A DNA stretch of 64,000 nucleotides from a virus. This document shows, piece by piece, positions 4,617 to 18,272 of this stretch. Position numbers and translations under genes: made by a program. Each line of letters opens with the position of its first letter. The stretch's first letter is position 1. The DNA lies in IMG/VR virus record IMGVR_UViG_3300008516_000190, positions 18,130 through 82,129 of that record, one strand, 5' to 3'. The notes below the pieces were generated by a model that had not been told where the DNA came from, made no database searches, and saw only the letters and a program-made list of their open reading frames with translations.

Positions 4617-4860
4617 TGCAAAGATAATTTTGGGAATTGGGAATCCATATACGGATATGTATATAGCCGATGAGGTGGATACATGGATAGCAGAAAAGAT
4701 AGCCGAATTGAAATGGAAAATTCAAGATGCAGAAGGAGATAGAAGTTTACAGATGTTTCATTATGAGGAATTTGTAACCGAACTTGAGCGGATAGTAAAG
4801 GATGTAGAAGATGCACCCAGAAACAAAGGACTCGCGGTTCATATAAAGAAAGACAAGTGA
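4603..4860 (+). CDS. Inserted small protein, 85 aa, with a borrowed C-terminus
   Basis: A GGGGGGAGAGG ribosome-binding site lies directly before the ATG. Residues 1-68 are unique to this gene and look mostly helical (W-I-A-E-K-I-A-E-L-K-W-K). The last 17 residues (from E-D-A-P-R-N-K-G) are the duplicated end of the upstream VWA protein, read in the same frame. The gene therefore sits between the two 89-bp repeats and looks like an insertion between the VWA gene and the 70-aa gene. Function unknown. Confidence 0.65.
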   Translation: MKRYNAKIILGIGNPYTDMYIADEVDTWIAEKIAELKWKIQDAEGDRSLQMFHYEEFVTELERIVKDVEDAPRNKGLAVHIKKDK

Positions 4861-4889
4861 GAAGAAATAGAAAAGTATTCGTAGCGAAG
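4801..4889 (+). repeat. Direct repeat copy 2 (89 bp): gene-junction duplication
   Basis: Second copy of the 4501-4589 repeat. Here it supplies the last codons of the inserted 85-aa gene, the GTGA overlap and the true start of the gene at 4857. Confidence 0.9.
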
Positions 4890-5678: not shown

Positions 5679-5829
5679 TGTTTGGTACAGAAAAGAGGTA
5701 GCCAAGCGTCTTCTTTTAGAAGAAAAAAAAGTCTCAATGGGAACTTTTATAGAAAGGTGGCTGAGAAATGACAAAGCCCCAGTTCGCGAAATATCTTCTG
5801 ACCGATCGAATAAAGAGATTGATAGCTGA
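5647..5829 (+). CDS. Small protein, AKxLL family, 60 aa
   Basis: The only start that includes the motif is TTG at 5647, with a purine-rich AAGAGAAAAGG about 11 bases upstream. Residues 17-25 read E-V-A-K-R-L-L-L-E. The rest is charged, with no cysteines. It overlaps both neighbours. The unusual start lowers confidence; the frame and motif are the evidence. Confidence 0.45.
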   Translation: MNKIRNFDDFDVWYRKEVAKRLLLEEKKVSMGTFIERWLRNDKAPVREISSDRSNKEIDS

Positions 5830-5962
5830 ATTAAAAGACGTGGCAATCAACAGCAGCCATGTTGTTGAAGATCACGTAAAAGCCGACAAACTGCTTCTGG
5901 AATATATTAACGAACCTGAAGTCTCATACTGGTTCGATGAGATAGATAAATGGTACGAGTGA
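5768..5962 (+). CDS. Small protein, AKxLL family, 64 aa
   Basis: ATG at 5768 with AAAGGTGG about 9 bases upstream. It begins M-T-K-P-Q-F-A-K-Y-L-L-T-D, the shared N-terminal motif right at the start. A helical, acidic C-terminus follows (Y-W-F-D-E-I-D-K-W-Y-E). No cysteines. Its stop overlaps the GTG of the next mini-gene. Confidence 0.6.
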   Translation: MTKPQFAKYLLTDRIKRLIAELKDVAINSSHVVEDHVKADKLLLEYINEPEVSYWFDEIDKWYE

Positions 5963-6051
5963 GCGGCAACAAGAAACTCCGACGGGATTATGCCAAGCAG
6001 CTTCTTAAAGGCGAAAAAATAGACTCGTCATATGCGAGTTTGATGGCATGA
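5959..6051 (+). CDS. Mini-protein, AKxLL family, 30 aa
   Basis: GTG at 5959 overlaps the preceding TGA (GTGA). The 30 residues contain R-D-Y-A-K-Q-L-L-K-G at 9-18 and little else. It is the smallest carrier of the motif and is kept because the overlap and motif position match its neighbours. It could be a decayed member. Confidence 0.45.
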   Translation: MSGNKKLRRDYAKQLLKGEKIDSSYASLMA

Positions 6052-6158
6052 TACACAGAACCACGACTCATTTGGAATCAAAACACGGTATGACTCACAA
6101 GGAGGCACTCGAAGAGGCCACACGAAGAACGAAGCACTTCTATGGCTTTACGTTCTGA
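6048..6158 (+). CDS. Mini-protein, 36 aa
   Basis: ATG at 6048 overlaps the preceding stop (ATGA). The product is histidine- and threonine-rich (about residues 2-19) with a helical middle (K-E-A-L-E-E-A-T-R-R). No AKxLL motif. It could be translated by coupling; evidence is weak. Confidence 0.35.
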   Translation: MIHRTTTHLESKHGMTHKEALEEATRRTKHFYGFTF

Positions 6159-6185
6159 CAAATGAAAGTCACACCGTTTTTTAAC

Positions 6186-6214
6186 TTTACAAACCTCCCT
6201 AACTGTGATATACT
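6186..6214 (+). promoter_or_regulatory. Sigma70-type promoter with extended -10; likely leaderless transcript
   Basis: TTTACA (6186-6191), 17 bases, TATACT (6209-6214), preceded by TGA (extended -10). Seven bases downstream of the -10 is the A of the ATG at 6221, and no Shine-Dalgarno site is present, so the mRNA would begin at or near the start codon. Confidence 0.6.
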
Positions 6215-6220
6215 TATATC

Positions 6221-6562
6221 ATGAAAACTTATACCAAAGAAGAAATCAAAGAGTTACTATCAAAATCAGACAAGGCTGTTGAAAGAGGAATACTGGCCAT
6301 TTACGGCAAACAAGCAGTTTCCGAGCAAGTTGCTGAATCCACTCTATATAGCAATGGGGTCGGTTTTAGTGCTTTTGATGCCAAGCGCGGCAGTTATTAT
6401 GCAGAATGGCTCAAAAATGGCCGACATCTCACCAGCGAGCATATTGAAAAAGGTCGTAATCTTATAGTGAAATACTCTAAACAGCTTGCTGACATAGCCA
6501 ACGAAAAACAAATCGAAAAAAGAAACACAGCAAAATCACTTCTAGGGAGTTCCAATGAATAA
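6221..6562 (+). CDS. Conserved phage hypothetical protein, 113 aa
   Basis: The sequence pattern (A-V-E-R-G-I-L-A-I-Y near residue 20, then N-G-V-G-F-S-A-F-D-A near 46, R-H-L-T near 69 and a C-terminal K-Y-S-K-Q-L) is one I know from a widespread phage protein of unknown function. A promoter directly abuts the ATG and there is no ribosome-binding site. The C-terminus also ends with an A-K-S-L-L. A role near DNA replication or recombination is often suggested for such proteins but cannot be read from this sequence. Confidence 0.65.
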   Translation: MKTYTKEEIKELLSKSDKAVERGILAIYGKQAVSEQVAESTLYSNGVGFSAFDAKRGSYYAEWLKNGRHLTSEHIEKGRNLIVKYSKQLADIANEKQIEKRNTAKSLLGSSNE

Positions 6563-6740
6563 TCCTTATATACTACACAAACCAATGTTGGTAGATAGTG
6601 GCTGCAAGGCTTTCTGTAACTGTTACCCAAATAACTGTAAAGACTGTCTGTCTAAAGACTTGGCTCATTTGCTTTATGTCGCGGGCGCCATAAGACCTTC
6701 TGAACTCATGAATATGGGCTCTGATTACCCTGAAGCATAG
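6555..6740 (+). CDS. Small cysteine-rich protein, 61 aa
   Basis: Overlaps the preceding gene by 8 bases; AGGGAG lies just upstream of the ATG. Five cysteines lie within residues 17-31 (GC, FCNC, NNCKDC), a possible metal site. A hydrophobic helix-like C-terminal half follows. It does not carry the AKxLL motif at its N-terminus. Function unknown. Confidence 0.55.
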   Translation: MNNPYILHKPMLVDSGCKAFCNCYPNNCKDCLSKDLAHLLYVAGAIRPSELMNMGSDYPEA

Positions 6741-6749
6741 ATATATACA

Positions 6750-6998
6750 ATGGATTATAAGTCGGCAGAAGCCAAAAATCTTCTGTTGGGAAGAGATATT
6801 CACTCATGCGAAGGATGCCGGCATTATATTTTCACCATGGGATTGGATTACGGATTTTCTTTTTGCAAGCTTCCTGGCAGAAAAAGAATATTGCGGAAAA
6901 AGAAATACAAACGTTTGAAGTTGGAACATGCCGGGACTTGTGATGAAATCCTGAACCACGATGGGAAATGCGAATGGTTTCAGCCAAAGCAGAAATAG
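6750..6998 (+). CDS. AKxLL/Cys4 small protein, 82 aa
   Basis: ATG at 6750. Residues 5-13 read S-A-E-A-K-N-L-L-L. C-E-G-C follows, then F-C-K-L-P and, near the end, C-E-W-F-Q-P. This is the pattern shared with the genes at 6974, 15982, 16182, 16406 and 16683: AKxLLL, CxxC, a single C after an aromatic or hydrophobic residue, and a last C followed by an aromatic pair. A four-cysteine zinc site is likely (inference). The middle is very basic (KRILRKKKYKR). Confidence 0.65.
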   Translation: MDYKSAEAKNLLLGRDIHSCEGCRHYIFTMGLDYGFSFCKLPGRKRILRKKKYKRLKLEHAGTCDEILNHDGKCEWFQPKQK

Positions 6999-7213
6999 CC
7001 AAGGGGCTTTTACTTAAAAACTGTGAGACGTGTGGATGGCGAACTCGGGGGAGTATTATGGATTCCGGCTACCCTGTTTGGTGCGTTCCAGAATACCGGG
7101 AACCAGATCGAAAGAGAACACTCGAGAGACGTGTGTCTGATGTGCCAACGACTAGAACATGCGAACACTATAAAGAGTTAAAAGCTTTGAGGGAGGAGTT
7201 GAGTGGAACTTAA
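6974..7213 (+). CDS. AKxLL/Cys4 small protein, 79 aa
   Basis: I chose the ATG at 6974 (GGGA 7 bases upstream) over the ATG two codons earlier at 6968. It overlaps the previous gene by 25 bases. Motif I-A-K-G-L-L-L-K-N, then C-E-T-C, W-C-V-P and C-E-H-Y, the same order as in its neighbour at 6750. The two are probably old tandem duplicates. Function unknown. Confidence 0.65.
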   Translation: MVSAKAEIAKGLLLKNCETCGWRTRGSIMDSGYPVWCVPEYREPDRKRTLERRVSDVPTTRTCEHYKELKALREELSGT

Positions 7214-7475
7214 AAACTCTGAGCTCGCGAGATATATGCTCACAAAAGAGTGTGATGAAAGAGTTTTTTTCTGTACCAGCGACAACCATTACAAGGTTTG
7301 GATGGTTTCGGTAAAAGGCAATCAGGTGATCACCAAGTGGGGGCGTATAGAGCTGAATAAAAAACTCCAGGTTAAGGTCAAAGATTTTCATGATTCTTGG
7401 GACGCAAAACATTATGCCATTGAAAAAATAAACGAAAAACTGTACACTAAGGATTACGAGGAGCTCAGTATCTAA
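7203..7475 (+). CDS. WGR-domain small protein with AKxLL-like N-terminus
   Basis: GTG at 7203 with GGGAGGAG about 5 bases upstream, overlapping the previous stop. After an N-terminal S-E-L-A-R-Y-M-L-T (a variant of the shared motif) the protein reads Y-K-V-W-M-V-S-V-x4-V-I-T-K-W-G-R-I, then a helix with A-K-H-Y-A. This is the layout of the WGR domain, known from PARPs and MolR-type proteins, where it binds nucleic acid ends. A stand-alone WGR domain of 90 aa is plausible as a nucleic-acid binder or decoy (inference). Confidence 0.6.
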   Translation: MELKNSELARYMLTKECDERVFFCTSDNHYKVWMVSVKGNQVITKWGRIELNKKLQVKVKDFHDSWDAKHYAIEKINEKLYTKDYEELSI

Positions 7476-8497
7476 TGGATAAACAAATGAAGGATCAAAG
7501 CTTAACATTCTGGACAACCGGAGAACACCTGACTAAAATTATGAGGGATCTCTGGGAAGAAAGAAGTTGTATACATGCTTTTAAAACAGCAAAAGAGGGT
7601 CTGGGAATGAATGAAGAACAAGCTATTAGTTTGTTCGAAGGCCGCATGAAACTAGGTGGAGATACTCGCAACGATCCAAATCTTTATTCAGAAACCGACA
7701 ATTACAAGGGAATCACTACTGATGAGATGATGGACTGGTTCGAAAAGAAATATATCGAGCTAAGGACCGATAAACTTAAATATGATCTCACCCTTAGAAA
7801 CAACATGATTAAATATCTTGGTCTTGGTCGGGGAGTTGGAATACTTGATACACAAACAGAAGCCAAAAACGCCGCCTTGAGTATGGAGAAAAAAACATTT
7901 GAATATTTGAGAAATTTAATGTTTCTTTATAACATATCAAACAGATCCATTACGGATTTTGAAAACAAAGTCGAAGAGGCGTTAAGAAATGCCGAGTTCA
8001 GCAAAGATGCGAGTTATATAAAAGACGATCTAGATGCTCAAAACGCAAAAACGCTTTTTGATGCATCAATAAGAAAGCTTAACGAGAGCATAGCGGCCGG
8101 CCCCAGGACGACAGATGAGTTTATCGAAAATGAAACAAAAATAGATAGCCTTGGAGCAACAAAGGGAAAACCGAAAGATTCTTCTTCTGGATGGCTTAGC
8201 CCCGATGGAGATTTTTATCCTTGTCCTTATATGGGACACATTGTTCTTATGGAAGCATTAGCAGAAGAGGGAATTGTGGAAAACGTCACACAGGAGAACG
8301 ATTTAGAACGACAGAACTGGGTTAAGATTTCATCCTTTAGAATGTATAATTTAGATGGCGACTTTTCCAACAGACAAAAGGACTTCATATTTGATTTTAT
8401 AACAGCACACGATTTGGACAAGATTGAAATAAATCATCATGTTGTAAAGTCCGAAAACGTATTTAGTTATCTTGATGAGCAAGTAAAATCTGTTTAA
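7475..8497 (+). CDS. Hypothetical protein, 340 aa
   Basis: The ATG overlaps the preceding stop (TAATG). No family recognised. The protein is mainly helical and charged. A distinct C-terminal segment begins near residue 230 with S-S-G-W-L-S-P-D-G-D-F-Y-P-C-P-Y-M-G-H, a pattern I have seen at the C-terminus of other phage proteins of unknown function. It lies between the small-protein cluster and the peptidase/transporter genes. Confidence 0.7.
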   Translation: MDKQMKDQSLTFWTTGEHLTKIMRDLWEERSCIHAFKTAKEGLGMNEEQAISLFEGRMKLGGDTRNDPNLYSETDNYKGITTDEMMDWFEKKYIELRTDKLKYDLTLRNNMIKYLGLGRGVGILDTQTEAKNAALSMEKKTFEYLRNLMFLYNISNRSITDFENKVEEALRNAEFSKDASYIKDDLDAQNAKTLFDASIRKLNESIAAGPRTTDEFIENETKIDSLGATKGKPKDSSSGWLSPDGDFYPCPYMGHIVLMEALAEEGIVENVTQENDLERQNWVKISSFRMYNLDGDFSNRQKDFIFDFITAHDLDKIEINHHVVKSENVFSYLDEQVKSV

Positions 8498-8509
8498 AAG
8501 GATCGGCAT

Positions 8510-9598
8510 GTGATTAAAGACGAGTGTAAACCGAGGATTAAGAATATCATAGACGGAATGCCAGGCAACTGTGACGCAATATTTCTCTGGAGCGATATGA
8601 TTGTAGATAAGAATCTCACGTATGTAACGGGCTTTACTTCCTCCAAAAGCGAGGGGGCTGCAGTACTCCTGGAGAAAAGCGGGAAGATTACATTATTTTC
8701 ACCAAGTCGAGATCAAGAGCTAAATCGACGCCAGGCAAGCTATGACGAATTTGTAGTTTGGAGTAAAATACAAGAGCGAGATGAAATGCTTAAGAAAATC
8801 CTCCCAAAGTTCTATAAGATAGGACTTTGCTTTGGCTCTCTTTTACACAGCTCTTATCGTACAATAGAGGAAATCTTTGTAGCTCGTAACTCAATTTTCG
8901 ATGTAACGGATCTTTTTGCAAAGCGCAGAAGTATCAAATCTCCGGATGAGATAGATAAAATAAAACGCGCATGCGAAATAGTTAGTAGACTAACTGTAAT
9001 ATTACCTACATTTTTACATGAGGGAATGAGCGAGATGGATTTAGCGGCCGAGGTGGAGTATCATATGAAGAAGATGGGTTCAGATGATCCTGCGTTCTCT
9101 ACCATCGTGGCCTTTGAAAAGAATACCAGTGTACCTCACCACTCTTCTGGAACCACCACCCTAATGAAAGATGATGTAGTACTCATTGATTTTGGTGCTG
9201 AGGTCGAGGGCTACAAGTCTGATATTACTCAGGTATATTTTATGGGAACTCCAGATCGATGGAAAAAACATATGTACAATAAAGTTCTTGAAGCGCAGCT
9301 GCTTGCCATTAGCATGATTAAACCTGGGATTAAGTCGGAAGATGTAATAAAAGAGGCGAAGAAAATAACAACTGGATATGGGAGATATAAGAACAGCTGG
9401 ATTCATGGACTTGGGCATGGTATTGGGCTTGACATTCATGACAGCCAATATCCTGACGTGTTTGAAGAAAACATGGTTTTAACAGTAGAACCAGGTATCT
9501 ATTTACCTGGTGATTATGGGGTTCGTCTTGAGGATGACATTCTTGTAACAAAGGGCGGGTGCGAGGTTCTCACGCATACACTTAAAAAGCGCTGGTAA
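8510..9598 (+). CDS. M24-family Xaa-Pro peptidase (prolidase/aminopeptidase P-like)
   Basis: GTG start with AAAGGA upstream. The C-terminal pita-bread domain has the five metal ligands in order: D227 (LIDFGAE), D238 (YKSDITQ), H303 (GHGIGLDIH), E327 (TVEPGIY) and E341 (VRLEDDI), with H210 in VPHHSSG. The N-terminal creatinase-like domain spans about residues 1-135. Members cleave peptide bonds beside proline using two Mn or Co ions. The gene stands 25 bases before the yejF-like gene, so it probably breaks down peptides imported by that transporter (inference). No signal peptide, so it is cytoplasmic. Confidence 0.9.
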   Translation: MIKDECKPRIKNIIDGMPGNCDAIFLWSDMIVDKNLTYVTGFTSSKSEGAAVLLEKSGKITLFSPSRDQELNRRQASYDEFVVWSKIQERDEMLKKILPKFYKIGLCFGSLLHSSYRTIEEIFVARNSIFDVTDLFAKRRSIKSPDEIDKIKRACEIVSRLTVILPTFLHEGMSEMDLAAEVEYHMKKMGSDDPAFSTIVAFEKNTSVPHHSSGTTTLMKDDVVLIDFGAEVEGYKSDITQVYFMGTPDRWKKHMYNKVLEAQLLAISMIKPGIKSEDVIKEAKKITTGYGRYKNSWIHGLGHGIGLDIHDSQYPDVFEENMVLTVEPGIYLPGDYGVRLEDDILVTKGGCEVLTHTLKKRW

Positions 9599-9623
9599 AT
9601 GTAACTGACCCCTCAAGGTTATT

Positions 9624-11201
9624 ATGAGCTTACTCACTATAAAGAATCTATTTGTAAAGTTTGAGATGCCTCAACAGCGCATTGATGCTGTCCGAGGTGT
9701 CTCTTTTGACATTAAAAAAGGAGAAACTTTTGCTCTCGTAGGGGAAAGTGGAGCAGGTAAGTCGGCCACCGCTCATGCGATTATGCAACTGTTACCTGCT
9801 TATACGAGATACGATGGCTCAATAATATTAAAGAACAACAATGTTTTTGAATGTTCCGAGGAGAGATTGAGAAAGATTAGAGGAAATGATGTTTCTATAA
9901 TATTCCAAGAGCCTATGACATCGCTTAATCCTCTCCATACAATCGAGAAGCAAATCGGTGAGATTATCGATCTTCATCAAGATGTAACAGGGGGCGAAAG
10001 AAGGGCAAGAACGATCGAGTTGTTGGATCAGGTTCAGCTAGATCATGCCGAGCAGCGCTTGAGTTCATTTCCGCACCAGTTGTCTGGCGGTCAGAGACAG
10101 CGAGTTATGATAGCCTTAGCTCTCGCAAACAAGCCAGATTTATTAATAGCAGACGAACCCACAACCGCTCTGGATGTCACGATACAGCGAGAGATATTGA
10201 AGCTCATAAGAGAGCTTCGCGACAAGTTACATATGTCAATGTTGTTAATCACGCACGATCTTTATATAGTAGAAAAAATGGCTGACCGTATTGGCGTAAT
10301 GAAAGATGGGGAGATTGTAGAAAGCGGGGATAATCTTAGTATTTTTAAACATCCTCAACACTCATATACAAAGTATTTGCTTGCGTCTATTCCAAAGCAA
10401 AAGCCTATAGAAACTACCAAGAAAAAACTAGTTTTAGAAACCAACGATCTTAAAGTACATTATCCTATATATAAAGGCATGTTCAGGAAAGTAAAAGGAT
10501 ATGTGAAAGCTGTTGATGGAATCACGATTAAAATCAAAGAGGGAGAGACGGTCGGTTTGGTTGGAGAAAGCGGATCGGGCAAAACCTCGTTTGGGTTAGC
10601 GGTTTTGAGATTGATTTCTAGTAAAGGCCAGATCAAGTTTCAAGGCGTAGAATTAAACAATCTTCTAAGTGGAGAAATGAGACCTTACAGACAAGAAATT
10701 CAAATTGTGTTTCAAGATCCTTTCGCAAGCCTTAACCCTCGTTTAACTGTAGGCCAAATTATAGAAGAAGGATTATCCGCTCACAACATTAAGGGTTGTT
10801 GGAATGATATGGTATGGCAAACTTTAATCAAAGTAGGCTTGGAGCCAGACATCCGAAATAGATATCCACACGAGTTTAGTGGAGGTCAAAGACAACGCAT
10901 ATGTATAGCTAGAGCGCTAGTGTTAAAACCCAAACTTTTAATTCTAGATGAGCCTACATCAGCTTTGGATCGATCAATTCAAAATCAGCTGATAGATCTC
11001 TTATTAGAGTTGCAGCGCACCTATAAACTGGCATATTTATTTATAAGTCACGATCTTCGCGTTGTAAAGGCGATGAGTCATTTGATTATCGTTATTAAAG
11101 ATGGTGTAGTTATGGAGGAGGGCAAGGCTGGAGAGGTCCTTGAGAAACCAAAGAGCGTATATACACAAGCTCTAGTTAAGGCTGCATTTGATATAATTTA
11201 G
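9624..11201 (+). CDS. yejF: YejF-like peptide ABC transporter ATPase (two fused cassettes)
   Basis: Two complete ABC cassettes lie in one 525-residue chain. Cassette 1: Walker A GESGAGKS (40-47), signature LSGGQ (153-157), Walker B LLIADE (173-178). Cassette 2: GESGSGKT near 313, signature FSGGQ near 418, LLILDE near 438. The length and fused layout match YejF, the ATPase of the YejABEF peptide importer; GsiA and fused DppDF proteins are alternatives. The yejB- and yejE-like genes downstream support YejF. In bacteria this system takes up oligopeptides and microcin C. All catalytic motifs are intact, so it should be active. Finding it among phage genes is unusual. Confidence 0.88.
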   Translation: MSLLTIKNLFVKFEMPQQRIDAVRGVSFDIKKGETFALVGESGAGKSATAHAIMQLLPAYTRYDGSIILKNNNVFECSEERLRKIRGNDVSIIFQEPMTSLNPLHTIEKQIGEIIDLHQDVTGGERRARTIELLDQVQLDHAEQRLSSFPHQLSGGQRQRVMIALALANKPDLLIADEPTTALDVTIQREILKLIRELRDKLHMSMLLITHDLYIVEKMADRIGVMKDGEIVESGDNLSIFKHPQHSYTKYLLASIPKQKPIETTKKKLVLETNDLKVHYPIYKGMFRKVKGYVKAVDGITIKIKEGETVGLVGESGSGKTSFGLAVLRLISSKGQIKFQGVELNNLLSGEMRPYRQEIQIVFQDPFASLNPRLTVGQIIEEGLSAHNIKGCWNDMVWQTLIKVGLEPDIRNRYPHEFSGGQRQRICIARALVLKPKLLILDEPTSALDRSIQNQLIDLLLELQRTYKLAYLFISHDLRVVKAMSHLIIVIKDGVVMEEGKAGEVLEKPKSVYTQALVKAAFDII

Positions 11202-11214
11202 GAGGTTTTTAAAA

Positions 11215-11565
11215 ATGAGTTGGTTAAAAAGTGTGTCCACAACCTTACGTTTTGTGATTATTTTTGTTATTGTGGTTCTTGTTTTTGTCGCCGTACTCTT
11301 TATCGCAAGTAGGCTTCAATTTGATCAACCAGAAATGGCACAGGCTCAAGAGGTTAGTGAGCCCATGTTAACCGAGCCCACCGTTGTGATTGACGGAGTA
11401 GCGACTACAACTTGGATTGATATTGATGTACCATACAGGAGTGCCTCTGTTATAGAAACATGTAAATCTTGGTCGCTTGAAGATGGTGGGGTGCTGGTTG
11501 TTCGAACTAAGGACGATAGGGTTATTATAATAGGTGGGGACTTTTTAGCAAGGATTGTGAAGTGA
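11215..11565 (+). CDS. Small inner-membrane-anchored protein in the yej cluster, 116 aa
   Basis: An AGGAGG site lies about 8 bases before the ATG. Residues 13-33 form one strong transmembrane helix (FVIIFVIVVLVFVAVLFIA) with basic residues before it. A hydrophilic domain follows with many valines and threonines, likely periplasmic and beta-rich. It sits between yejF and yejB and overlaps yejB by a GTGA, so it is co-translated with the permease. No family recognised. It might be a phage-specific accessory subunit or a regulator of the importer (inference). Confidence 0.65.
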   Translation: MSWLKSVSTTLRFVIIFVIVVLVFVAVLFIASRLQFDQPEMAQAQEVSEPMLTEPTVVIDGVATTTWIDIDVPYRSASVIETCKSWSLEDGGVLVVRTKDDRVIIIGGDFLARIVK

Positions 11566-12665
11566 TATCCTATATCCTCAGACGCTTGGGTCTTATTATT
11601 CCTACACTAATTGGGATTATGATTATTAATTTTTTCATAATACAATCGGCCCCAGGTGGTCCTGTTGAAAAAACGATTGCTCGGCTCAAAGGCGTTGATG
11701 TTGCAGTTACTGAAAGAATAACGAAAGGTGGTGGTGGCGAGGTTAGTCAAACAAAAACAGACAAGCAGGTTGGGATGGAGTCAAAGTATCGAGGAGCTCA
11801 AGGATTGGATCCCGAACTGATTATGGAAATTGAAGAGATGTATGGTTTTGATAAACCACTTTATAAACGGTTTTTTATTATGATGTGGAATTACATAAGG
11901 TTTGATTTTGGAACCAGCTATTACAGAGACAGAAAAGTTCTTGATTTGGTTTTAGAGAAAATGCCAGTGTCAATCTCGTTGGGTATATGGACAACGCTAT
12001 TGACTTATCTAATCTCAATTCCACTAGGCATCAAGAAAGCAATAAGAGATGGAACAAAATTCGATTTATGGAGTTCATTTGTTGTAACAATTGGTTATGC
12101 AATACCCAGTTTCTTATTTGCCATTATGTTGATAATACTCTTCTCTGGCGGGAGCTTTTTGAATATATTTCCTTTAAGAGGATTGGTCTCAGATGGGTGG
12201 GCCACCTTTTCATTTGGCATGAAGATAGCCGATTACTTTTGGCATTTGGTACTACCTATATTTGCGATGACAATAGGCGGGTTTGCAGGCCTTACTATAT
12301 TCACAAAGAACGCGTTTTTGGCTGAAATAAGCAAGCAGTATGTAATCACAGCTCAATCAAAAGGCCTCAAGCAGAAGAAAATTCTTTATGGTCACGTGTT
12401 TAGAAATGCCATGTTGATTATTATTGCCGGGTTTCCATCTGCATTTATAAGCGTTCTATTCACCGGTTCTGTTTTAATAGAAGTAATTTTCTCTCTTGAT
12501 GGGCTAGGGCTCTTGGGGTTCGAGTCGGCCTTGGGCAGGGATTATGCGGTAATGTTTGCGACACTATATGTATTTAGTCTCATGGGTTTATTTCTAAAAC
12601 TAATCGGAGATCTAATGTATATGTTCATAGATCCTCGTATTGACTTTGAAACTAGAGAGGTTTGA
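11562..12665 (+). CDS. yejB: YejB-like peptide ABC transporter permease
   Basis: GTG start overlapping the preceding stop. The N-terminus Y-I-L-R-R-L-G-L-I-I-P-T-L and the N-F-F-I-I-Q-S-A-P-G-G-P-V-E segment are characteristic of YejB. The 367-aa length also matches the YejB subfamily rather than shorter OppB/DppB. An extended periplasmic segment (residues 45-95) and about six membrane helices follow, with an EAA-type loop near residues 260-280 and the usual OppB-family ending F-I-D-P-R-I-D-F. The last codons are duplicated at 12823-12873, past one inserted small gene. Confidence 0.88.
   Translation: MISYILRRLGLIIPTLIGIMIINFFIIQSAPGGPVEKTIARLKGVDVAVTERITKGGGGEVSQTKTDKQVGMESKYRGAQGLDPELIMEIEEMYGFDKPLYKRFFIMMWNYIRFDFGTSYYRDRKVLDLVLEKMPVSISLGIWTTLLTYLISIPLGIKKAIRDGTKFDLWSSFVVTIGYAIPSFLFAIMLIILFSGGSFLNIFPLRGLVSDGWATFSFGMKIADYFWHLVLPIFAMTIGGFAGLTIFTKNAFLAEISKQYVITAQSKGLKQKKILYGHVFRNAMLIIIAGFPSAFISVLFTGSVLIEVIFSLDGLGLLGFESALGRDYAVMFATLYVFSLMGLFLKLIGDLMYMFIDPRIDFETREV
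12615..12652 (+). repeat. Direct repeat copy 1 of the yejB 3' end (38 bp exact)
   Basis: Bases 12615-12652 equal 12823-12860 exactly at an offset of 208. Beyond it the two copies differ only at synonymous positions (Thr, Arg, Val codons and the stop). Confidence 0.9.
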
Positions 12666-12823
12666 TGGAAAGATTAAAGAAAATATGGAATCGTTTGGTG
12701 AAATGTAAGCATCAGTGGAAACGTGGCATGTATTATGCTATATGGGGAGGAACTCTGCGCATAGCTATTTTTCGATGTGAGAAATGCGGTAGAGAAAAAA
12801 AAGATAGGTGGTTGTGGTTGTGA
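12665..12823 (+). CDS. Inserted zinc-ribbon-like mini-protein, 52 aa
   Basis: The ATG overlaps the yejB stop (TGATG) and its own stop overlaps the ATG of the yejB relic in the same way. The product is basic, with C-K-H-Q-W near residue 14 and C-E-K-C-G near residue 38, a possible CxH...CxxC metal site. It lies exactly between the two copies of the yejB 3' end and so looks like an insertion into the transporter operon. Function unknown. Confidence 0.6.
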   Translation: MERLKKIWNRLVKCKHQWKRGMYYAIWGGTLRIAIFRCEKCGREKKDRWLWL

Positions 12824-12860
12824 TGTATATGTTCATAGATCCTCGTATTGACTTTGAAAC
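12823..12860 (+). repeat. Direct repeat copy 2 of the yejB 3' end
   Basis: Second copy of the 38-base repeat at 12615-12652; it forms most of the relic frame. Confidence 0.9.
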
Positions 12861-12873
12861 GCGCGAGGTGTAA
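12823..12873 (+). pseudogene. Relic of the yejB 3' end (16 codons)
   Basis: An ATG-to-TAA mini-frame of 16 residues, identical in protein sequence to the last 16 residues of YejB (ending F-E-T-R-E-V). The nucleotide differences from the intact copy are synonymous. It is probably the original end of yejB, displaced when the mini-gene was inserted. It is not expected to function. Confidence 0.75.
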
Positions 12874-12908
12874 AAAGTGAGATTAAAAATAAACCAAGGT
12901 GGTTGAAA

Positions 12909-13151
12909 ATGGAAGTGTACATAGTTATTACAGAAGATACCCATACTGATGTCTCCGTAGAAGTTTTTAAGCATCTTATTGATGCGCGTGAGCGAGTGGC
13001 TGAGATTCAAGATCTTTATGGTGACAAATATGAGTGGCAGGTGAAAGTAATTAAGGGCTGGGCCTACTATGTGAGAACATATAGCGATTGTGTTTCAATA
13101 CGGATTGAAAAAAAGAAACTAAAGGAGATGCGTCATGAAAAGATTGAGTAG
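12909..13151 (+). CDS. Small hypothetical protein, 80 aa
   Basis: I chose the ATG at 12909, with AAGGTGG about 7 bases upstream, over a TTG two codons earlier. It starts M-E-V-Y-I-V-I-T and has a beta-alpha-beta look (V-S-V-E-V-F-K-H-L-I-D-A-R-E-R-V, then Y-E-W-Q-V-K-V-I), ending in a basic tail. Similar small folds occur as inhibitors or adaptors, but no family is recognised. It lies in the stretch of small genes separating yejB and yejE. Confidence 0.55.
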   Translation: MEVYIVITEDTHTDVSVEVFKHLIDARERVAEIQDLYGDKYEWQVKVIKGWAYYVRTYSDCVSIRIEKKKLKEMRHEKIE

Positions 13152-13269
13152 GATCATAGGAAGATGGTTTAAGTACACTTTTCGGTTCCATCATGTGTAC
13201 TACAAGGGTTATATGGATCGGAAAATGAGAAAGCATTGCCGGCCGTCCTATATAAATGGCGGGTATTAA
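13135..13269 (+). CDS. Mini-protein, strongly basic, 44 aa
   Basis: ATG at 13135, 17 bases inside the end of the previous gene, with AAGGAG about 8 bases upstream. Rich in Arg, Lys, His and Tyr (for example R-F-H-H-V-Y-Y). No hydrophobic helix long enough to cross a membrane. The ribosome-binding site and overlap are the main evidence; function unknown. Confidence 0.45.
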   Translation: MKRLSRIIGRWFKYTFRFHHVYYKGYMDRKMRKHCRPSYINGGY

Positions 13270-13298
13270 AAGTAAATACTTAATTAAGGAAAGTAGAG

Positions 13299-13493
13299 AT
13301 GAGTTGTAATCATATGACTAAAGAACAGCTTGAAGCAAAGATTGCTTGGAATGAGAAGTACCTGGCAGAAGGCGCACAACATATTGCCAACCTAGAAGCA
13401 ATGATTGAGTGGGAAAAGTCTCATTTGACTAAGCACGCAGAGTTTCACGCAAAGAGCGTGAAACGACTTGCTGAGATAAATGAGACGTCTTAA
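13299..13493 (+). CDS. Small coiled-coil protein, 64 aa
   Basis: ATG at 13299. Almost the whole protein is one predicted amphipathic helix with a regular pattern (L-E-A-K-I-A-W-N-E-K, then A-N-L-E-A-M-I-E-W-E-K), suggesting a short coiled coil or helical hairpin. No cysteines beyond residue 3. Function unknown; it is part of the inserted small-gene stretch in the transporter cluster. Confidence 0.5.
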   Translation: MSCNHMTKEQLEAKIAWNEKYLAEGAQHIANLEAMIEWEKSHLTKHAEFHAKSVKRLAEINETS

Positions 13494-13508
13494 TAAAGGG
13501 GTCATGAC

Positions 13509-13928
13509 ATGACAAAACGCGGCCGTGATATATTATTTATCTCATTTCTTATAGGTTTTGCGGTGATTGTAGGAAGTGTGGCAAAATATCCGAACCACTT
13601 TTCATCCAAGAAGGCCTATGAGAAACAGGGCATTATGTCTCCCTTACAGATTGAATTAAGAGATTGGACCCAGGTTGGTTCGCTGGTTTCAGTTTCGTAT
13701 GTTTTGACTAACAAGGGAAGCGAAGTGGTAATAGGATGGACGATGGAGTACTTGTATGTCTATATGAATACGCAGAACAAGCAGGTAGTGCAGCATCTAA
13801 AAGTATATCACCAAGGCAATAGACGTGTTGACTCGCGCGAAGAGTATTTTGGTGTATTTGTGTTTACTGAACATCGAGAGGTCGTGGAAATTAAAATTTG
13901 GGGAGTGACCGAAGCAGTCCTGGAATAA
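13509..13928 (+). CDS. Membrane-anchored periplasmic protein in the yej cluster, 139 aa
   Basis: Begins M-T-K-R-G-R-D, then a hydrophobic helix (about residues 8-25) that could be an anchor or uncleaved signal. The remainder alternates hydrophobic and polar residues like a beta sandwich (V-S-V-S-Y-V-L-T-N-K-G, G-V-F-V-F-T), a pattern of DUF4352-like extracytoplasmic domains. It directly precedes yejE. Like the 11215 protein it has one helix plus a periplasmic domain, so both could assist the importer (inference). Confidence 0.6.
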   Translation: MTKRGRDILFISFLIGFAVIVGSVAKYPNHFSSKKAYEKQGIMSPLQIELRDWTQVGSLVSVSYVLTNKGSEVVIGWTMEYLYVYMNTQNKQVVQHLKVYHQGNRRVDSREEYFGVFVFTEHREVVEIKIWGVTEAVLE

Positions 13929-13937
13929 GGATTAGGG

Positions 13938-14966
13938 ATGAAAGAACTAAGCCTGGTAGCAAGAAGAAGATTAGATAATTTTATAGCAAACAGAAGGGCG
14001 TACTGGTCGCTCTGGATATTCCTTTTTCTTTTTGTTTTTTCACTTTTTGCCGAGTTCATAGCAAACGATAGTCCTCTGCTTATAAGATACGCAGATCGGT
14101 TTTACTTTCCAATAACCAAAAATTATACGGAGATGGATTTCGGCGGGACATTAAACATAAAGGCAGATTATCATGATCCATATCTTGAAGAGTTGATAAA
14201 AAACAACGGCTGGATTATCTGGCCAGCGATTAAGTATAAATTTGATACAATTGATTATATAATGACGGAACCAGCACCAACTAAACCTTCTCTGAGACAT
14301 TGGCTGGGAACCGATGACCAAGGTCATGATGTAGTCGCGCTGGTGATTTACGGTTTCAGGATATCTGTAATTTTCGGACTTGTATTGACCACATGTAGTT
14401 CTGCTATCGGAATAATGGCAGGAGCGGTTCAGGGTTATTTTGGTGGTAGAGTTGATCTATTGATGCAAAGGTTCATTGAAATCTGGGGCTCGATACCAAC
14501 ATTGTTTTTGATAATAATTATTACTAGTATTATTACTCCAAACTTTGCGTTGCTGTTGTTAATCTTACTTTTGTTTTCATGGCTGTCGTTAGTTGGGGTA
14601 GTGCGCGCAGAATTTTTACGGACCCGAAATTTTGAGTATGTTAAAGCCGCAAGAGCCTTGGGTGTCAAAGATTTTAAGATTATGTTTAAGCATATACTTC
14701 CTAACGCAATGGTTGCTACGTTAACGTTTTTGCCGTTCATTCTAAATGGTTCCATCGTCGCTCTTACTTCTCTTGATTTTCTGGGATTCGGGCTTCCAGC
14801 CGGATCTCCTTCGTTAGGGAGATTACTGGCTCAAGGAAAGGCCAATTTGCAGGCGCCTTGGTTAGGAATTACTTCATTTGTGGTGCTTTCGGTTTTACTT
14901 TCACTTCTCATCTTTGTTGGAGAAGGCGTGAGAGATGCGTTTGATTCGCGGAAGAACTTATCATGA
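13938..14966 (+). CDS. yejE: YejE-like peptide ABC transporter permease
   Basis: 342 residues, the size of YejE. Subfamily hallmarks: N-R-R-A-Y-W-S-L-W-I-F near the N-terminus, E-F-I-A-N-D-S-P-L-L near 36, N-G-W-I-I-W-P near 90, W-L-G-T-D-D-Q-G-H-D, then R-A-E-F-L-R-T-R-N-F-E-Y and an EAA-type loop A-A-R-A-L-G-V, with L-D-F-L-G-F-G-L-P-x-G-S-P-S-L-G near the end. Recalled E. coli YejE shares most of these blocks in the same order. It pairs with YejB to form the channel. It is separated from yejB by five small genes, unlike the usual adjacent order. No periplasmic binding protein (YejA) gene is in the window. Confidence 0.92.
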   Translation: MKELSLVARRRLDNFIANRRAYWSLWIFLFLFVFSLFAEFIANDSPLLIRYADRFYFPITKNYTEMDFGGTLNIKADYHDPYLEELIKNNGWIIWPAIKYKFDTIDYIMTEPAPTKPSLRHWLGTDDQGHDVVALVIYGFRISVIFGLVLTTCSSAIGIMAGAVQGYFGGRVDLLMQRFIEIWGSIPTLFLIIIITSIITPNFALLLLILLLFSWLSLVGVVRAEFLRTRNFEYVKAARALGVKDFKIMFKHILPNAMVATLTFLPFILNGSIVALTSLDFLGFGLPAGSPSLGRLLAQGKANLQAPWLGITSFVVLSVLLSLLIFVGEGVRDAFDSRKNLS

Positions 14967-14994
14967 TAATAATTTACAGGAGAAGGGGCTGTTT

Positions 14995-15402
14995 ATGAAA
15001 AAGGAGAAAGAAGCAAGCGTATGGAGCGGCATTATTATTTGGATCGGCGTAGGTGCTTTGTTGGCCATAGGGCTGTGTATGTTTCACAATCACGAGCTCA
15101 TGACGTGGTATATTAAAGTTGCGCTGTATGCGGCTTTTATGTATTGTATGATGAAGGTCGGCGGTCACGCTTACAAAATAGTGTATAGCTGGCGCATCAG
15201 GTATCCTAAACATTGGGAAGAGCGCATAATGATGCGTATATCTAAAAAGATTAAAAAGGCCACCGAACAAATAGTTTTGGCCAGACATTATCAGGAAGAA
15301 AACTATAAAAAAACTGATGCATACAAAAAAAGATTTGATCCATTCAATATGGATTTGAATAAAATAATGGAAAAGGGTAAACAAGATGGAAATGTACTTT
15401 AG
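14995..15402 (+). CDS. Two-helix membrane protein after yejE, 135 aa
   Basis: I chose the ATG at 14995 because AGGAGAAGGGG sits just upstream; an in-frame ATG at 14935 lies inside yejE. Two transmembrane helices span about residues 13-30 and 42-56. A long cytoplasmic, lysine-rich tail follows, probably helical. It is the third small membrane protein associated with the transporter genes. Function unknown. Confidence 0.65.
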   Translation: MKKEKEASVWSGIIIWIGVGALLAIGLCMFHNHELMTWYIKVALYAAFMYCMMKVGGHAYKIVYSWRIRYPKHWEERIMMRISKKIKKATEQIVLARHYQEENYKKTDAYKKRFDPFNMDLNKIMEKGKQDGNVL

Positions 15403-15985
15403 TGTTGACGTAGAAGCAGACGGTCCCATACCTGGTCCTAACTCTATGTTGAGCATTGCGGCCGCGGCATTTGACCGTGAAGGAAACATGGTAGGAACAT
15501 TTGAAGCTAATCTCAAGGAACTTCCGGATGCAGAGCAGGATCCTAATACCATGAAGTTCTGGAGTCGCAACAAAGAGGCGTGGGATGAATGCCGAAAGAA
15601 TCCCGGAGATCCGGAAGAAGTAATGAAACGGTTTCACAAGTGGGTCACTGCAACCGCTTTGAAGTTTAACTGCAAACCCGTGCTCGTTGCTTTTCCCGCA
15701 GGTTTTGATTTCACTTTTGTATACTGGTATCTCATAAGATTCATGAAGCATTCGCCATTTTCGTTTTCTGCGCTGGACATGAAAACTTTTGCAATGTTTT
15801 TGATAAATTGCGAGTACCGAAAAGTAACAAAAGCCAGGATGCCAGGCCGGTGGATGAATACGGCACACAAGCACACTCACAAGGCTATTGATGATGCTAT
15901 TGAACAAGGACACATATTCATAAACATGATACGCGAATACAGGTCCTTTATCAGTATGCTTTCTAATCCTGAAACTATGCCATGA
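15386..15985 (+). CDS. DEDDh 3'-5' exonuclease (RNase T/oligoribonuclease-like)
   Basis: Exo I motif D8-x-E10, Exo II D108 in A-G-F-D-F-T-F-V, Exo III H165-x4-D170 in H-K-A-I-D-D-A, the DEDDh arrangement. At 199 aa it is a single-domain exonuclease, in the size range of RNase T and oligoribonuclease and like stand-alone phage exoribonucleases. The substrate could be short RNA or single-stranded DNA ends; the sequence does not decide. It overlaps the preceding gene by 17 bases and its stop overlaps the next start (ATGATAA), so it is co-translated with the AKxLL/Cys4 cluster. Confidence 0.8.
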   Translation: MEMYFSVDVEADGPIPGPNSMLSIAAAAFDREGNMVGTFEANLKELPDAEQDPNTMKFWSRNKEAWDECRKNPGDPEEVMKRFHKWVTATALKFNCKPVLVAFPAGFDFTFVYWYLIRFMKHSPFSFSALDMKTFAMFLINCEYRKVTKARMPGRWMNTAHKHTHKAIDDAIEQGHIFINMIREYRSFISMLSNPETMP

Positions 15986-16185
15986 TAAGCAAGAGCGTTG
16001 TAGCTAAAAAATTATTGTTGGACAAAAACTGTTGCAAGTGCCTTTACGGATACCGACGTCTTCATCCAAAAACACATAAATACCAATACTTATGCATGTT
16101 GCGTTCGCGGCAGAGTGGTGTAGACGAAAATATTTCCAATGATTATACATGTCGGGACTTTTACCGCGGTTATAAAACGAAATGA
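15982..16185 (+). CDS. AKxLL/Cys4 small protein, 67 aa
   Basis: The ATG overlaps the exonuclease stop. Begins M-I-S-K-S-V-V-A-K-K-L-L-L-D-K, then C-C-K-C, L-C-M-L and C-R-D-F-Y. First of four consecutive genes with the same plan. A zinc-binding fold is likely from the four spaced cysteines (inference). Confidence 0.7.
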   Translation: MISKSVVAKKLLLDKNCCKCLYGYRRLHPKTHKYQYLCMLRSRQSGVDENISNDYTCRDFYRGYKTK

Positions 16186-16409
16186 GAGATAGATTTACAA
16201 AAGAGTGCGCAAAAAAATTATTATTAGGTAAAACATGTCAGAGGTGCATACATTTTTATCATTTAGATGCATACGGCAATAATATAGGGCATTATTGCGC
16301 GCACCCGCTTTGGAGTAACAATAAAAATCATGACTTTATTGGTAAAGTTTGTAAAATAAATGTCATGGGAACATGTGATTTTTGGGAAGGTTCAAAACGT
16401 ATAGTATGA
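16182..16409 (+). CDS. AKxLL/Cys4 small protein, 75 aa
   Basis: ATGA overlap with the previous stop. Residues 9-16 read C-A-K-K-L-L-L-G, followed by C-Q-R-C, Y-C-A-H-P and C-D-F-W. The AKKLLL core is identical to its neighbours at 15982 and 16406, while the part between cysteines differs, so the N-terminal motif is more conserved than the zinc-site region. Confidence 0.7.
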   Translation: MRDRFTKECAKKLLLGKTCQRCIHFYHLDAYGNNIGHYCAHPLWSNNKNHDFIGKVCKINVMGTCDFWEGSKRIV

Positions 16410-16714
16410 AAAAAGCGAACGTCGCCAAAAAACTGCTATTAGATAAAGGATGTATAAATTGCCTCTATTGTATAAAGGGCTCTTTTGAATATAAAGACTG
16501 GTATTGTCGACTTGAAGAAAGAAACACATTTTTACACGACAGCGGAATGTGTGATGTCCCAAAAGAACTGTTTTGTGAAGATTACTATCCTCATGTGAAT
16601 GACGCCCATAAGCGTGATGACTTCTGGCAACATGTGGAACGTACGCATAAAAAATACATATCTCTTATGCGGAAAAAACATAATGGCAAACTGGACACGC
16701 AAGAAAAAAGCTAA
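16406..16714 (+). CDS. AKxLL/Cys4 protein with basic C-terminal extension, 102 aa
   Basis: The ATG at 16406 overlaps the previous stop (ATGA) and is preferred to a TTG at 16382. Begins M-K-K-A-N-V-A-K-K-L-L-L-D-K, then C-I-N-C, Y-C-R-L and C-E-D-Y-Y. The last 35 residues are His/Lys-rich and have no match in the shorter relatives. Confidence 0.7.
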   Translation: MKKANVAKKLLLDKGCINCLYCIKGSFEYKDWYCRLEERNTFLHDSGMCDVPKELFCEDYYPHVNDAHKRDDFWQHVERTHKKYISLMRKKHNGKLDTQEKS

Positions 16715-16892
16715 AATGCTTTTGATGAATAAAACATGCTTGACGTGTCGTTGGCGTGTGAATATTCCAATTGGCACCACTTCTAAGTGTATTAACTTAA
16801 ACGTGTATCGATCACCAAAGATACCCACCTGCGCGCAGTGGAAACCCGTCATTTCTTCTGGCCGATCGGCCTTTACAGGACGAGCAATATAG
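16683..16892 (+). CDS. AKxLL/Cys4 small protein, 69 aa
   Basis: I chose the ATG at 16683, which places the motif K-K-K-A-K-M-L-L-M-N-K at the N-terminus as in its relatives; a longer frame back to 16599 exists. C-L-T-C, K-C-I-N and C-A-Q-W follow. It ends just before the promoter of the CCA-adding enzyme gene, whose -35 lies inside its last codons. Confidence 0.65.
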   Translation: MANWTRKKKAKMLLMNKTCLTCRWRVNIPIGTTSKCINLNVYRSPKIPTCAQWKPVISSGRSAFTGRAI

Positions 16893-16900
16893 GTTATAAT
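16872..16900 (+). promoter_or_regulatory. Sigma70-type promoter; likely leaderless transcript
   Basis: TTTACA (16872-16877), 17 bases, TATAAT (16895-16900). The expected +1, seven bases on, is the A of the ATG at 16907. There is no Shine-Dalgarno site. This is the best promoter match in the window together with 1283. Confidence 0.65.
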
Positions 16901-16906
16901 ATAAAC

Positions 16907-18220
16907 ATGAAAGACAAAGCACTAAACATCGTCAAAAAACTTCAAGACAATGGCTATGATGCTGTATATGCCGGCGGTTCTGTCCGCGATATGCTTCTCG
17001 GCCACAAGCCTCATGATTATGACATCGCCACCAATGCTCTTCCGGAAAAGGTTGAGGAGCTTTTTGACCTCACCCTTCCCATCGGTAAAACTTTCGGTGT
17101 TGTTGTGGTTATGATGGACGGCGACCCTTTTGAGGTGGCCACCTTCAGAACCGACGGTGAGTATTTGGACGGCCGTCACCCTTCTAAAGTAACCTATGCT
17201 ACCATTCAAGAGGATGCCGAGCGCAGGGACTTTACTATCAACGCCATGTTTTATGATCCTATCGAAGACCATTTCATCGATCTGGTTGACGGCAAGAAAG
17301 ACCTGGAAAACAAAAACTTAAGGTTTGTCGGCGACTCTCAAAAAAGAATCGATGAGGATAAGTTGAGAATGCTACGGGCCGTTAGGTTCGCAGTTCGTTT
17401 TGATATGAAGATTGAAGACGAGTCTTTTCAGGCTATCGTCCGCAACTCTCATAAAATCCATGAGGTTTCTAACGAGAGGATCCAGGATGAGTTGTCCAAG
17501 CTGTTCAGGCTTGGTGAATCTACAAGAGCGTTGGATCTCCTATGGTCTTCTGGTCTTCTTAAACAAGTTCTTCCGGAAGTCGCAAACATGAAGGGCTGTC
17601 CACAAGAACCCAAGTGGCATCCAGAGGGTGATGTTTTTGAGCATACCAAGATTGTAATGGACCTTCTTTTCGAGGAGAACGAGGACCTCAAAGACGAGAC
17701 CATTTGGGCGACTCTGCTTCATGACATCGGGAAGCCTCCGGTGACTGTCTATGAGAACGGCAGAGTCAGAAGTCGCGCTCATGAGTTTGTTGGGGCTGAC
17801 ATGGCCAAAGAGCGGCTCAAAGAGCTTAAGTTTTCAACCAAGTTCATTGAGTTGGTATATAATTTGATTCATGACCATATGCGCATTAAGAAAGCAACCA
17901 AGATGCGTACCGCTAAACTCAAGAGAATGCTCGCTCAGCCTTATTTGGTTGAGTTGATGCAACTATGTCGTGCCGATTCTCTTTCTTCTACCAAGATGAT
18001 TGAGTGGTACGATTATATTAACGAGAAACTCGACACTTTTGAGCCCGAAGAGATTAAGCCTCCACGACTAATCGACGGTCATGATTTGATCGAACTCGGT
18101 CTTGAACCAGGGCCTATCTTCCGGGAGCTTTTGGAAGATGTAACCGACAAGCAACTCGAAGATGTTCTGAAAAGCAAGGAAGATGCTATCAGATATATCA
18201 AAGAGAAGATTGACAACTAA
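16907..18220 (+). CDS. cca: CCA tRNA nucleotidyltransferase with HD domain
   Basis: I start at the ATG 16907, giving 437 aa; a frame extension back to 16838 would place the promoter inside the gene. N-terminal catalytic motif A-G-G-S-V-R-D with D-Y-D (residues near 20-40), E-R-R-D-F-T-I-N-A-M near 106, R-A-V-R-F near 155, and an HD-domain L-L-H-D-I-G-K-P near 264. This is the bacterial class II CCA-adding enzyme layout. It adds or repairs the CCA end of tRNAs, which helps phages whose own tRNA genes lack CCA or whose host tRNAs are attacked by defence nucleases (inference). Base use differs visibly from its neighbours: the codons are more GC- and T-ending, which may mean later acquisition. 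Confidence 0.92.
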   Translation: MKDKALNIVKKLQDNGYDAVYAGGSVRDMLLGHKPHDYDIATNALPEKVEELFDLTLPIGKTFGVVVVMMDGDPFEVATFRTDGEYLDGRHPSKVTYATIQEDAERRDFTINAMFYDPIEDHFIDLVDGKKDLENKNLRFVGDSQKRIDEDKLRMLRAVRFAVRFDMKIEDESFQAIVRNSHKIHEVSNERIQDELSKLFRLGESTRALDLLWSSGLLKQVLPEVANMKGCPQEPKWHPEGDVFEHTKIVMDLLFEENEDLKDETIWATLLHDIGKPPVTVYENGRVRSRAHEFVGADMAKERLKELKFSTKFIELVYNLIHDHMRIKKATKMRTAKLKRMLAQPYLVELMQLCRADSLSSTKMIEWYDYINEKLDTFEPEEIKPPRLIDGHDLIELGLEPGPIFRELLEDVTDKQLEDVLKSKEDAIRYIKEKIDN

Positions 18221-18252
18221 GGCAGCTCCTTAGGGAGCTGTCTTTTTTTTTT
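18221..18252 (+). terminator. Intrinsic terminator after cca
   Basis: Stem GGCAGCTCC / GGAGCTGTC (18221-18229 and 18234-18242, one G-T pair), loop TTAG, followed by ten T bases. It starts at the base after the cca stop codon. Confidence 0.9.
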
Positions 18253-18260
18253 GTCATGAC

Positions 18261-18269
18261 ATATATAAT
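18261..18269 (+). promoter_or_regulatory. Candidate phage promoter (CATATATAAT-type)
   Basis: ATATATAAT directly after the terminator and 3 bases before the ATG at 18273, or 12 before the ATG at 18282. No good -35 box. It resembles the AAAGCATATATA sites at 20459, 21755 and 23610. Confidence 0.4.
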
Positions 18270-18272
18270 AGC

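Follow-up and report, generated by a model that had tools for sequence, protein, structure and literature searches.

The genome of an uncultured phage carries a group of genes resembling part of a cellular peptide-uptake system. The window analysed, 64,000 bases long, corresponds to bases 18130-82129 of the 82,129-base IMG/VR record IMGVR_UViG_3300008516_000190, and encodes on its plus strand an M24 metallopeptidase followed by yejF, yejB and yejE, interleaved with small open reading frames (ORFs). We propose, with roughly an even chance of being right (about 0.5), that this cassette is a host-derived peptide-acquisition module, in which a YejBEF core and an M24 prolidase-like peptidase would use the YejA protein of the host and feed amino acids to the infected cell. 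The carrier is most likely a large tailed phage whose host is a spirochaete of the order that includes the metagenome-assembled genome (MAG) HyVt-370.

The transporter proteins were identified by family models, motif patterns and trees. Pfam searches found ABC_tran twice in YejF (2.4e-63) and BPD_transp_1 in both YejB (7.5e-32) and YejE (9.8e-30). In NCBIfam, YejB and YejE exceeded the curated cut-offs of their models (523.8 bits against 445 for NF011712 and 499.4 bits against 439 for NF011596). YejF scored 652.3 bits with the equivalog NF011713, below the cut-off of 834, although this was still its best model. When the same model was run on five YejF proteins from yej operons, E. coli alone passed (1100), while Vibrio (818), Rhizobium (780), the HyVt-370 spirochaete (723) and Acinetobacter (590) failed. 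The cut-off is a narrow one, and the phage protein is, by best model and tree, YejF-type, outside that equivalog. Walker A/B, Q-loop, signature and H-loop patterns, which we take in their usual meaning, were found in both halves of YejF.

The protein encoded in front of yejF, with a gap of 25 bases between the two genes, matches Peptidase_M24 (PF00557) at 1.3e-58 (198.6 bits, cut-off 23) and Creatinase_N at 8e-11. It has the usual M24 motif patterns, whose residues we take to be the metal ligands, and is called prolidase-like because its nearest solved structures are Xaa-Pro dipeptidases (4e-52). The genes therefore lie at the place and on the strand where a sequence-only reading of this DNA had put yejF-, yejB- and yejE-like genes with intact motifs and a prolidase gene just upstream.

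Both parts of the cassette point to the same group of bacteria. A genome scan with a YejB alignment, keeping the best 80 of at least 583 confirmed relatives, had Spirochaetes MAG HyVt-370 at the top, at 70%, among the matches listed. Within the phylum of HyVt-370, YejB was found at E 1e-100 in 22 of 392 sampled genomes, and seven of the eight genomes of the order of G041, which includes HyVt-370, had a match (69-74%). Identity of the phage proteins to those of six spirochaetes was 69-74% for YejB, 69-73% for YejE and 57-63% for YejF. In separate trees of YejB, YejE and YejF, which were quick trees with 39 comparators hand-picked from the 84 loci having all three genes, the phage joined these same six spirochaetes with a support of 99 each in the Shimodaira-Hasegawa-like approximate likelihood ratio test (SH-aLRT), so that every subunit groups with its counterparts from six genuine yej operons. 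The concatenated tree gave a support of 100 to phage plus spirochaetes, and in the YejF tree the phage protein was nested within the six (92), beside genomes G005 and G041. An unrelated class of transporter, which would have spoken against the sequence-only reading, did not come out of these trees.

The M24 protein had relatives at E <=1e-60 in six of the 392 spirochaete genomes (37-45% identity), all six being among the eight genomes of the HyVt-370 order, and it grouped with these in its tree (100/99). That tree had 22 comparators: besides those six there were another six from spirochaetes, nine plasmid proteins and one phage protein; relatives had been sought in spirochaete genomes, plasmids and phage records, with coverage of other phyla less than exhaustive. 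Identity to plasmid proteins was at most 34.3% in the best 25 of 564 records.

In the spirochaete loci where all four genes were seen, their order is yejA-B-E-F. The distance between the M24 gene and yej could be read in G005 only, the two being on different contigs elsewhere; in G005 the nearest M24 relative lies approximately 1.1 Mb from yejB on the same 3.53-Mb contig. From this order and this distance it seems that the phage took its cassette from two host loci, leaving out yejA and reordering the rest, and so brought together two functions that are unlinked in the host. GC content at third codon positions is 36.4-39.1 in the cassette genes, against a phage mean of 41.8 (standard deviation 5.0, 54 genes of at least 200 amino acids). 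This phage-like composition, together with identities of 37-74% to the nearest cellular proteins and intact motifs, suggests that the cassette has been carried by the phage for a long time. Consensus promoters in positions 6000-18500 were not in excess (35 found, 32.3 expected).

The same block of genes is present in a second phage record, IMGVR_UViG_3300028837_002886, of 130,931 bases. The shorter record is contained in this longer one as three collinear blocks of 58,159, 21,796 and 2,007 bases with one mismatch overall, and window positions 1562-22870 are 100% identical. Between the blocks the shorter record has 112 and 55 extra bases (58160-58271 and 80068-80122 of the record, window 40031-40142 and 61939-61993, in tail-gene territory), which may be strain variants or assembly differences. 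The phage structural genes reported earlier in the window proved to be those of a tail tape measure, a baseplate wedge protein and a further tail protein, and an adjoining stretch of the phage encodes a helicase, a primase, a gp32-like protein, an N-terminal part of DNA polymerase III alpha and a tubulin/FtsZ-like protein. The cassette can thus be described as phage auxiliary metabolic genes, that is, host-derived metabolic genes on a phage genome, since phage genes flank it in both records and it groups with cellular relatives in the trees.

The alternative that bacterial DNA was fused to a phage contig during assembly is very improbable, even though the two records may share underlying reads. 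The junctions are identical in both records, which elsewhere differ by one base and two indels, and one fusion event could not produce genes ordered M24-F-B-E and lacking A, with abutting or overlapping small ORFs, all on the majority strand (194 of 212 called ORFs, the caller favouring that strand). The second record and the interleaved ORFs thus make unlikely the bacterial contig join that had been named as a way for the earlier interpretation to fail.

Among the 54 proteins searched against Pfam or PHROGs (the longer record has 212 called ORFs), no terminase, portal or capsid could be named confidently, and the phage genome is for this reason probably incomplete; one of them, at 58324-61107, did match a head-and-packaging PHROG locally (1e-7). 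Searches of IMG/VR for relatives of the phage with its baseplate protein, its helicase and a protein similar to lysine-ketoglutarate reductase (LKR) returned the longer record only, and of 50,697 phage records only that of an uncultured phage of 595 kb had a match to the baseplate protein (23% identity over 47%).

The sequence-only reading had no YejA in view and suggested that the phage might rely on a binding protein of the host or on one elsewhere in its genome. Searches with SBP_bac_5 and YejA gave no match in either the 82-kb or the 131-kb record, the latter reaching well beyond the window, and tblastn searches for YejA in the phage records gave chance matches only (best E 0.34). A complete YejABEF importer, with YejA encoded together with the core, was therefore found in neither record, and the phage transporter is, as far as its sequence tells, a YejBEF-type core and not YejABEF. 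YejA is encoded in all eight genomes of the HyVt-370 order (67-100% to HyVt-370 YejA), one copy being cut at a contig end and two having one in-frame stop. Family models, trees and the longer record all support the probable use of a host binding protein, and a phage core served by host YejA is probably the simplest mechanism, for which the Agrobacterium YejBEF-YepA importer (PMC9790009), whose binding protein is encoded apart from the core, is a precedent. In the putative periplasmic stretches, similarity between the phage and the six spirochaetes was nearly that of the spirochaetes among themselves (60 vs 66% for YejB, 59 vs 64% for YejE), as expected if phage YejB and YejE still meet such a YejA, and this lends the mechanism weak support.

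On infection, phage-made YejBEF cores would join the inner membrane of the host and be loaded by its periplasmic YejA; oligopeptides would be drawn in at the expense of ATP, and the M24 peptidase, together with host peptidases, would release amino acids for phage protein synthesis. Host identity, expression, assembly with host YejA, substrate and benefit are steps of this model that we infer from the genes. A supply of amino acids from peptides is the favoured function, given that the transporter has beside it a peptidase traced to the same host lineage. A bolder version, which we hold only tentatively and regard as less likely than the module itself, is that the phage parasitises a host receptor: cores without a binding protein would compete for YejA and be coupled to a peptidase from an unlinked locus, rewiring the infected spirochaete toward peptide or muropeptide feeding during virion production. 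The LKR-like enzyme encoded elsewhere on the phage genome is perhaps also coupled to that route.

If the imported substrate were cell wall material, the same core would serve a different purpose. Muropeptide salvage, which had not been foreseen by the sequence-only reading and which we consider unlikely but still the main rival, and a serious one, would have phage YejBEF and host YejA or another binding protein re-import peptidoglycan fragments, released by growth or by phage muralytic enzymes, in order to keep the envelope sound or to feed synthesis. The AmpG family (TIGR00901) was found in none of the eight genomes of the HyVt-370 order, with a control positive in five of 14 named genomes including E. 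coli, although this count comes from MAGs of unstated completeness. The phage itself encodes a protein with a lytic-transglycosylase (SLT) domain, and the available text of PMC9790009 describes Agrobacterium YejBEF with YepA as the muropeptide importer, but YepA is described there as unique to Alphaproteobacteria. A prolidase-like peptidase is ill-suited to muropeptides, the adjoining M24 gene would have to be an independent acquisition, and muropeptide import by a spirochaete Yej system would be hypothetical, by analogy only. Still less probable is an effect on toxic peptides, whereby YejA would be diverted by extra or altered cores, or microcin-like or antimicrobial peptides would be taken up differently because of them, to the advantage of the infected cell or the detriment of its rivals. 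Yej systems do influence sensitivity or resistance to such peptides, according to the accessible parts of PMC4994006, PMC10128002 and PMC10924461. However, the intact ABC motifs make a blocking, inactive copy unlikely, no toxin-like or immunity-like family was matched among the cassette ORFs tested, and the peptidase would be left unexplained.

Several observations weigh against a peptide-acquisition module fed by host YejA. The M24 protein scored 185.3 bits with the NCBIfam model for the Xaa-Pro dipeptidase PepQ (NF040821), far from its cut-off of 630, so that it can be called prolidase-like only and its Xaa-Pro specificity is putative. G005 also has, approximately 23 kb from yej, another M24 gene that is less closely related (30% identity). 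As the phage genome looks incomplete, the phage may encode its own YejA or another binding protein outside these records, and the benefit of added cores is not obvious if the host already has YejBEF. The end branch of YejF (0.96) is longer than those of YejB (0.43) and YejE (0.40), and the putative coupling loop of YejB is 65% similar between phage and spirochaetes and 81% among spirochaetes; taken together, these make altered coupling to the ATPase possible. Finally, the spirochaete host is deduced from the acquired genes alone: among 392 spirochaete genomes just one matched the baseplate protein, weakly and locally, and the LKR-like gene was found in none of 14, in a search that had no positive control.

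Interspersed with the four cassette genes, and following them, are six small called ORFs (Table 1), and yejB overlaps its neighbouring ORFs at both ends. When eight ORFs of the cassette region were compared with a set of bacterial loci, nothing was found at E 1e-3 except for the M24 protein. Low-confidence AlphaFold models gave the 116-residue and 139-residue products an N-terminal helix that is, in each case, a probable membrane anchor. Neither the 139-residue nor the 155-residue ORF had a Pfam, NCBIfam or PHROG match, and the latter may lie outside the module.

The 3' end of yejB is present twice, a feature that had escaped the sequence-only reading. The two copies, 208 bases apart, share 38 identical bases followed by five differences over the last five codons, all of them synonymous, leaving residues and stop unchanged. 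Our reading is that two diverged, functional yejB ends recombined, which would have brought in the 52-residue ORF; other yejB-bearing relatives would therefore be implied, and none was found in the IMG/VR scans. A second duplicated 3' end was seen at window positions 4500-4589 and 4800-4889 (96.7% over 90 bases, 300 bases apart), where the last 61 bases of gene 3256-4560 and bases beyond it are copied and ORF 4603-4860 stops at the matching stop. It has the same pattern as the yejB end, and perhaps one insertion mechanism is shared.

Such signs of recombination in the stretch, at yejB and at another gene, as well as the long YejF end branch, would fit host genes that recombination had swept in and that are kept without benefit. 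This we think improbable, since four intact ORFs with full motifs and 37-74% identity to their nearest relatives are probably old, two separate host sources fit poorly with neutral carriage, and the two yejB ends differ by synonymous changes only.

Table 1 Features of the cassette and phage structural genes, in window positions.
Feature	Position	Strand	Details and basis
M24 metallopeptidase, prolidase-like	8510..9598	+	362 aa (amino acids), GTG start; Pfam PF00557
yejF-type ATPase, two ABC domains	9624..11201	+	525 aa; best NCBIfam model YejF, motifs, tree
Small ORF, predicted long N-terminal helix and small domain	11215..11565	+	116 aa; AlphaFold, low confidence (predicted local distance difference test, pLDDT, 63.3)
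yejB permease	11562..12665	+	367 aa, GTG start; NCBIfam, tree
38-base repeat, first copy, within yejB 3' end	12615..12652	+	
Small ORF between the two yejB 3'-end copies	12665..12823	+	52 aa
38-base repeat, second copy, duplicate of yejB 3' end	12823..12860	+	
Small ORF	12909..13151	+	80 aa
Small ORF	13299..13493	+	64 aa
Small ORF, predicted N-terminal helix and beta-rich domain	13509..13928	+	139 aa; AlphaFold, low confidence (pLDDT 58.3)
yejE permease	13938..14966	+	342 aa; NCBIfam, tree
ORF overlapping yejE end	14935..15402	+	155 aa; later in-frame ATG at 14995 possible
Tail tape measure	29401-32619		
Baseplate wedge protein	43333-45579		
Further tail protein	45579-47099		

Other genes of the phage were noted in passing. 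The LKR-like protein (397 aa, L004:10950-12143, minus strand, the same as L008:6821-8014, approximately 10 kb upstream of the window start) resembles along its whole length the LKR part of alpha-aminoadipic semialdehyde synthase (E 6e-42), and its gene is a possible amino-acid metabolism gene. The tubulin/FtsZ-family protein is diverged (332 aa, L006:7919-8917, minus strand, Pfam 1.7e-10) and weakly matched FtsZ, TubZ and phage-type structures. A topoisomerase IB (L005:3722-5386, minus strand) has all three domains of eukaryote-named Pfam models (5e-61, 1.6e-51 and 1.1e-13). Also on the minus strand are a 624-aa PAS / histidine kinase / response regulator protein (L007:796-2670), with a 702-aa ORF directly after it, the 406-aa N-terminal part of DNA polymerase III alpha (L007:5662-6882) and, both below their NCBIfam cut-offs, a 293-aa part of PurH (5-aminoimidazole-4-carboxamide ribonucleotide, AICAR, transformylase; L006:5373-6254) and a 238-aa KdsB-like cytidylyltransferase (L004:2063-2779). 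Eleven small ORFs, at window 5768-7213, 15982-16714 and far upstream in the longer record, have an AKxLL-like motif, picked by eye, in their first 25 residues, with four to six cysteines in six of them, and are possibly a paralogous family of small zinc-binding proteins. A gene at 16838-18220 resembling tRNA-nucleotidyltransferase/poly(A)-polymerase is followed by a strong terminator-like hairpin and eight Ts (18219-18244), and a near-consensus promoter (16872-16900) lies inside its 5' end, ahead of an ATG at 16907.

In IMG/VR, scans with single YejB, YejE and YejF proteins returned the sister record only, and the only further contig, IMGVR_UViG_3300014621_000008, came from scans with alignments of YejE and YejB; divergent relatives may have escaped, since a hit in any of these scans depends on short exact patterns. 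On this contig yejB-E-F and part of yejA adjoin integrase-like and filamentous-phage-like ORFs, and we read it as host DNA beside a prophage. Some phage records with matches of high identity were discounted as misfiled bacterial sequence: MT836541 and MT835876, with chromosomal-looking ORFs, a contig of Acinetobacter phage MD-2021a, and Microcystis phage MaAM05, in which the match is surrounded by murJ, bioD, trpG and prs. In the records MW495066.1, MT835876.1, MT836541.1 and CAKLQH020000022.1, all filed as phage, the surroundings of the match look like bacterial chromosome. The closest full-length matches in the phage records that we opened thus look like misfiled bacterial DNA. The open-access literature that was searched yielded no paper on a phage-borne yej system. 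Oligopeptide transport is mentioned among prophage genes in the available portion of PMC12013270, and the part of PMC9231711 that was accessible describes a Treponema mutant without a phage region in which oligopeptide transporter expression was altered, the transporters themselves not being phage-borne.

What had been concluded from the sequence alone therefore stood as regards YejBEF identity, phage context and the absence of YejA in view. Phage-borne peptide importers and M24 enzymes were already known, a complete dipeptide importer operon being present on one annotated phage record, and other phages carry nutrient-uptake pieces such as pstS; what is new is a receptor-less YejBEF core beside a peptidase in a large, presumed spirochaete phage, the core of three genes and the peptidase both traced to one spirochaete order and the receptor apparently left to the host. 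If the module works in the way proposed, one could test in peptide-feeding bacteria whether phage production is limited by the supply of amino acids or by cell-wall salvage, and there would be a handle on the phages of uncultured spirochaetes.

Compared with known systems, the phage core is closest to the cellular YejABEF of HyVt-370, its relatives and E. coli (57% for E. coli YejB), with which it shares sequence and intact ABC motifs. It differs from them in its order F-B-E instead of A-B-E-F, in the interleaved small ORFs, in the M24 gene in front, in that no yejA was found and in its location on a phage. From the available text of PMC9790009, YejBEF-YepA of Agrobacterium tumefaciens likewise consists of a core working with a binding protein encoded elsewhere, but it is chromosomal, its native operon keeps yejA and its substrate has been shown. 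PHROG 24316 is an M24 family on phage records that matches the phage protein at 4e-59, and the M24-like protein of Streptococcus phage MissG2 (29.6% identity) falls outside the spirochaete clade in the tree, with no importer in the stretch seen. The pstS gene of cyanobacterial viruses, in the accessible part of PMC3429862, is also a piece of a host nutrient importer carried by phage; there it is the binding protein that is carried, whereas here it is the core without it. A credible precedent comes from the annotated record of Fusobacterium phage vB_FnuS_FNU4 (OQ808964), where the dppABCDF operon encodes an ABC importer for peptides; this importer differs in being of the Dpp/Opp type (approximately 30% identity to phage YejB), with its own binding protein, its operon order kept and an integrase gene nearby.

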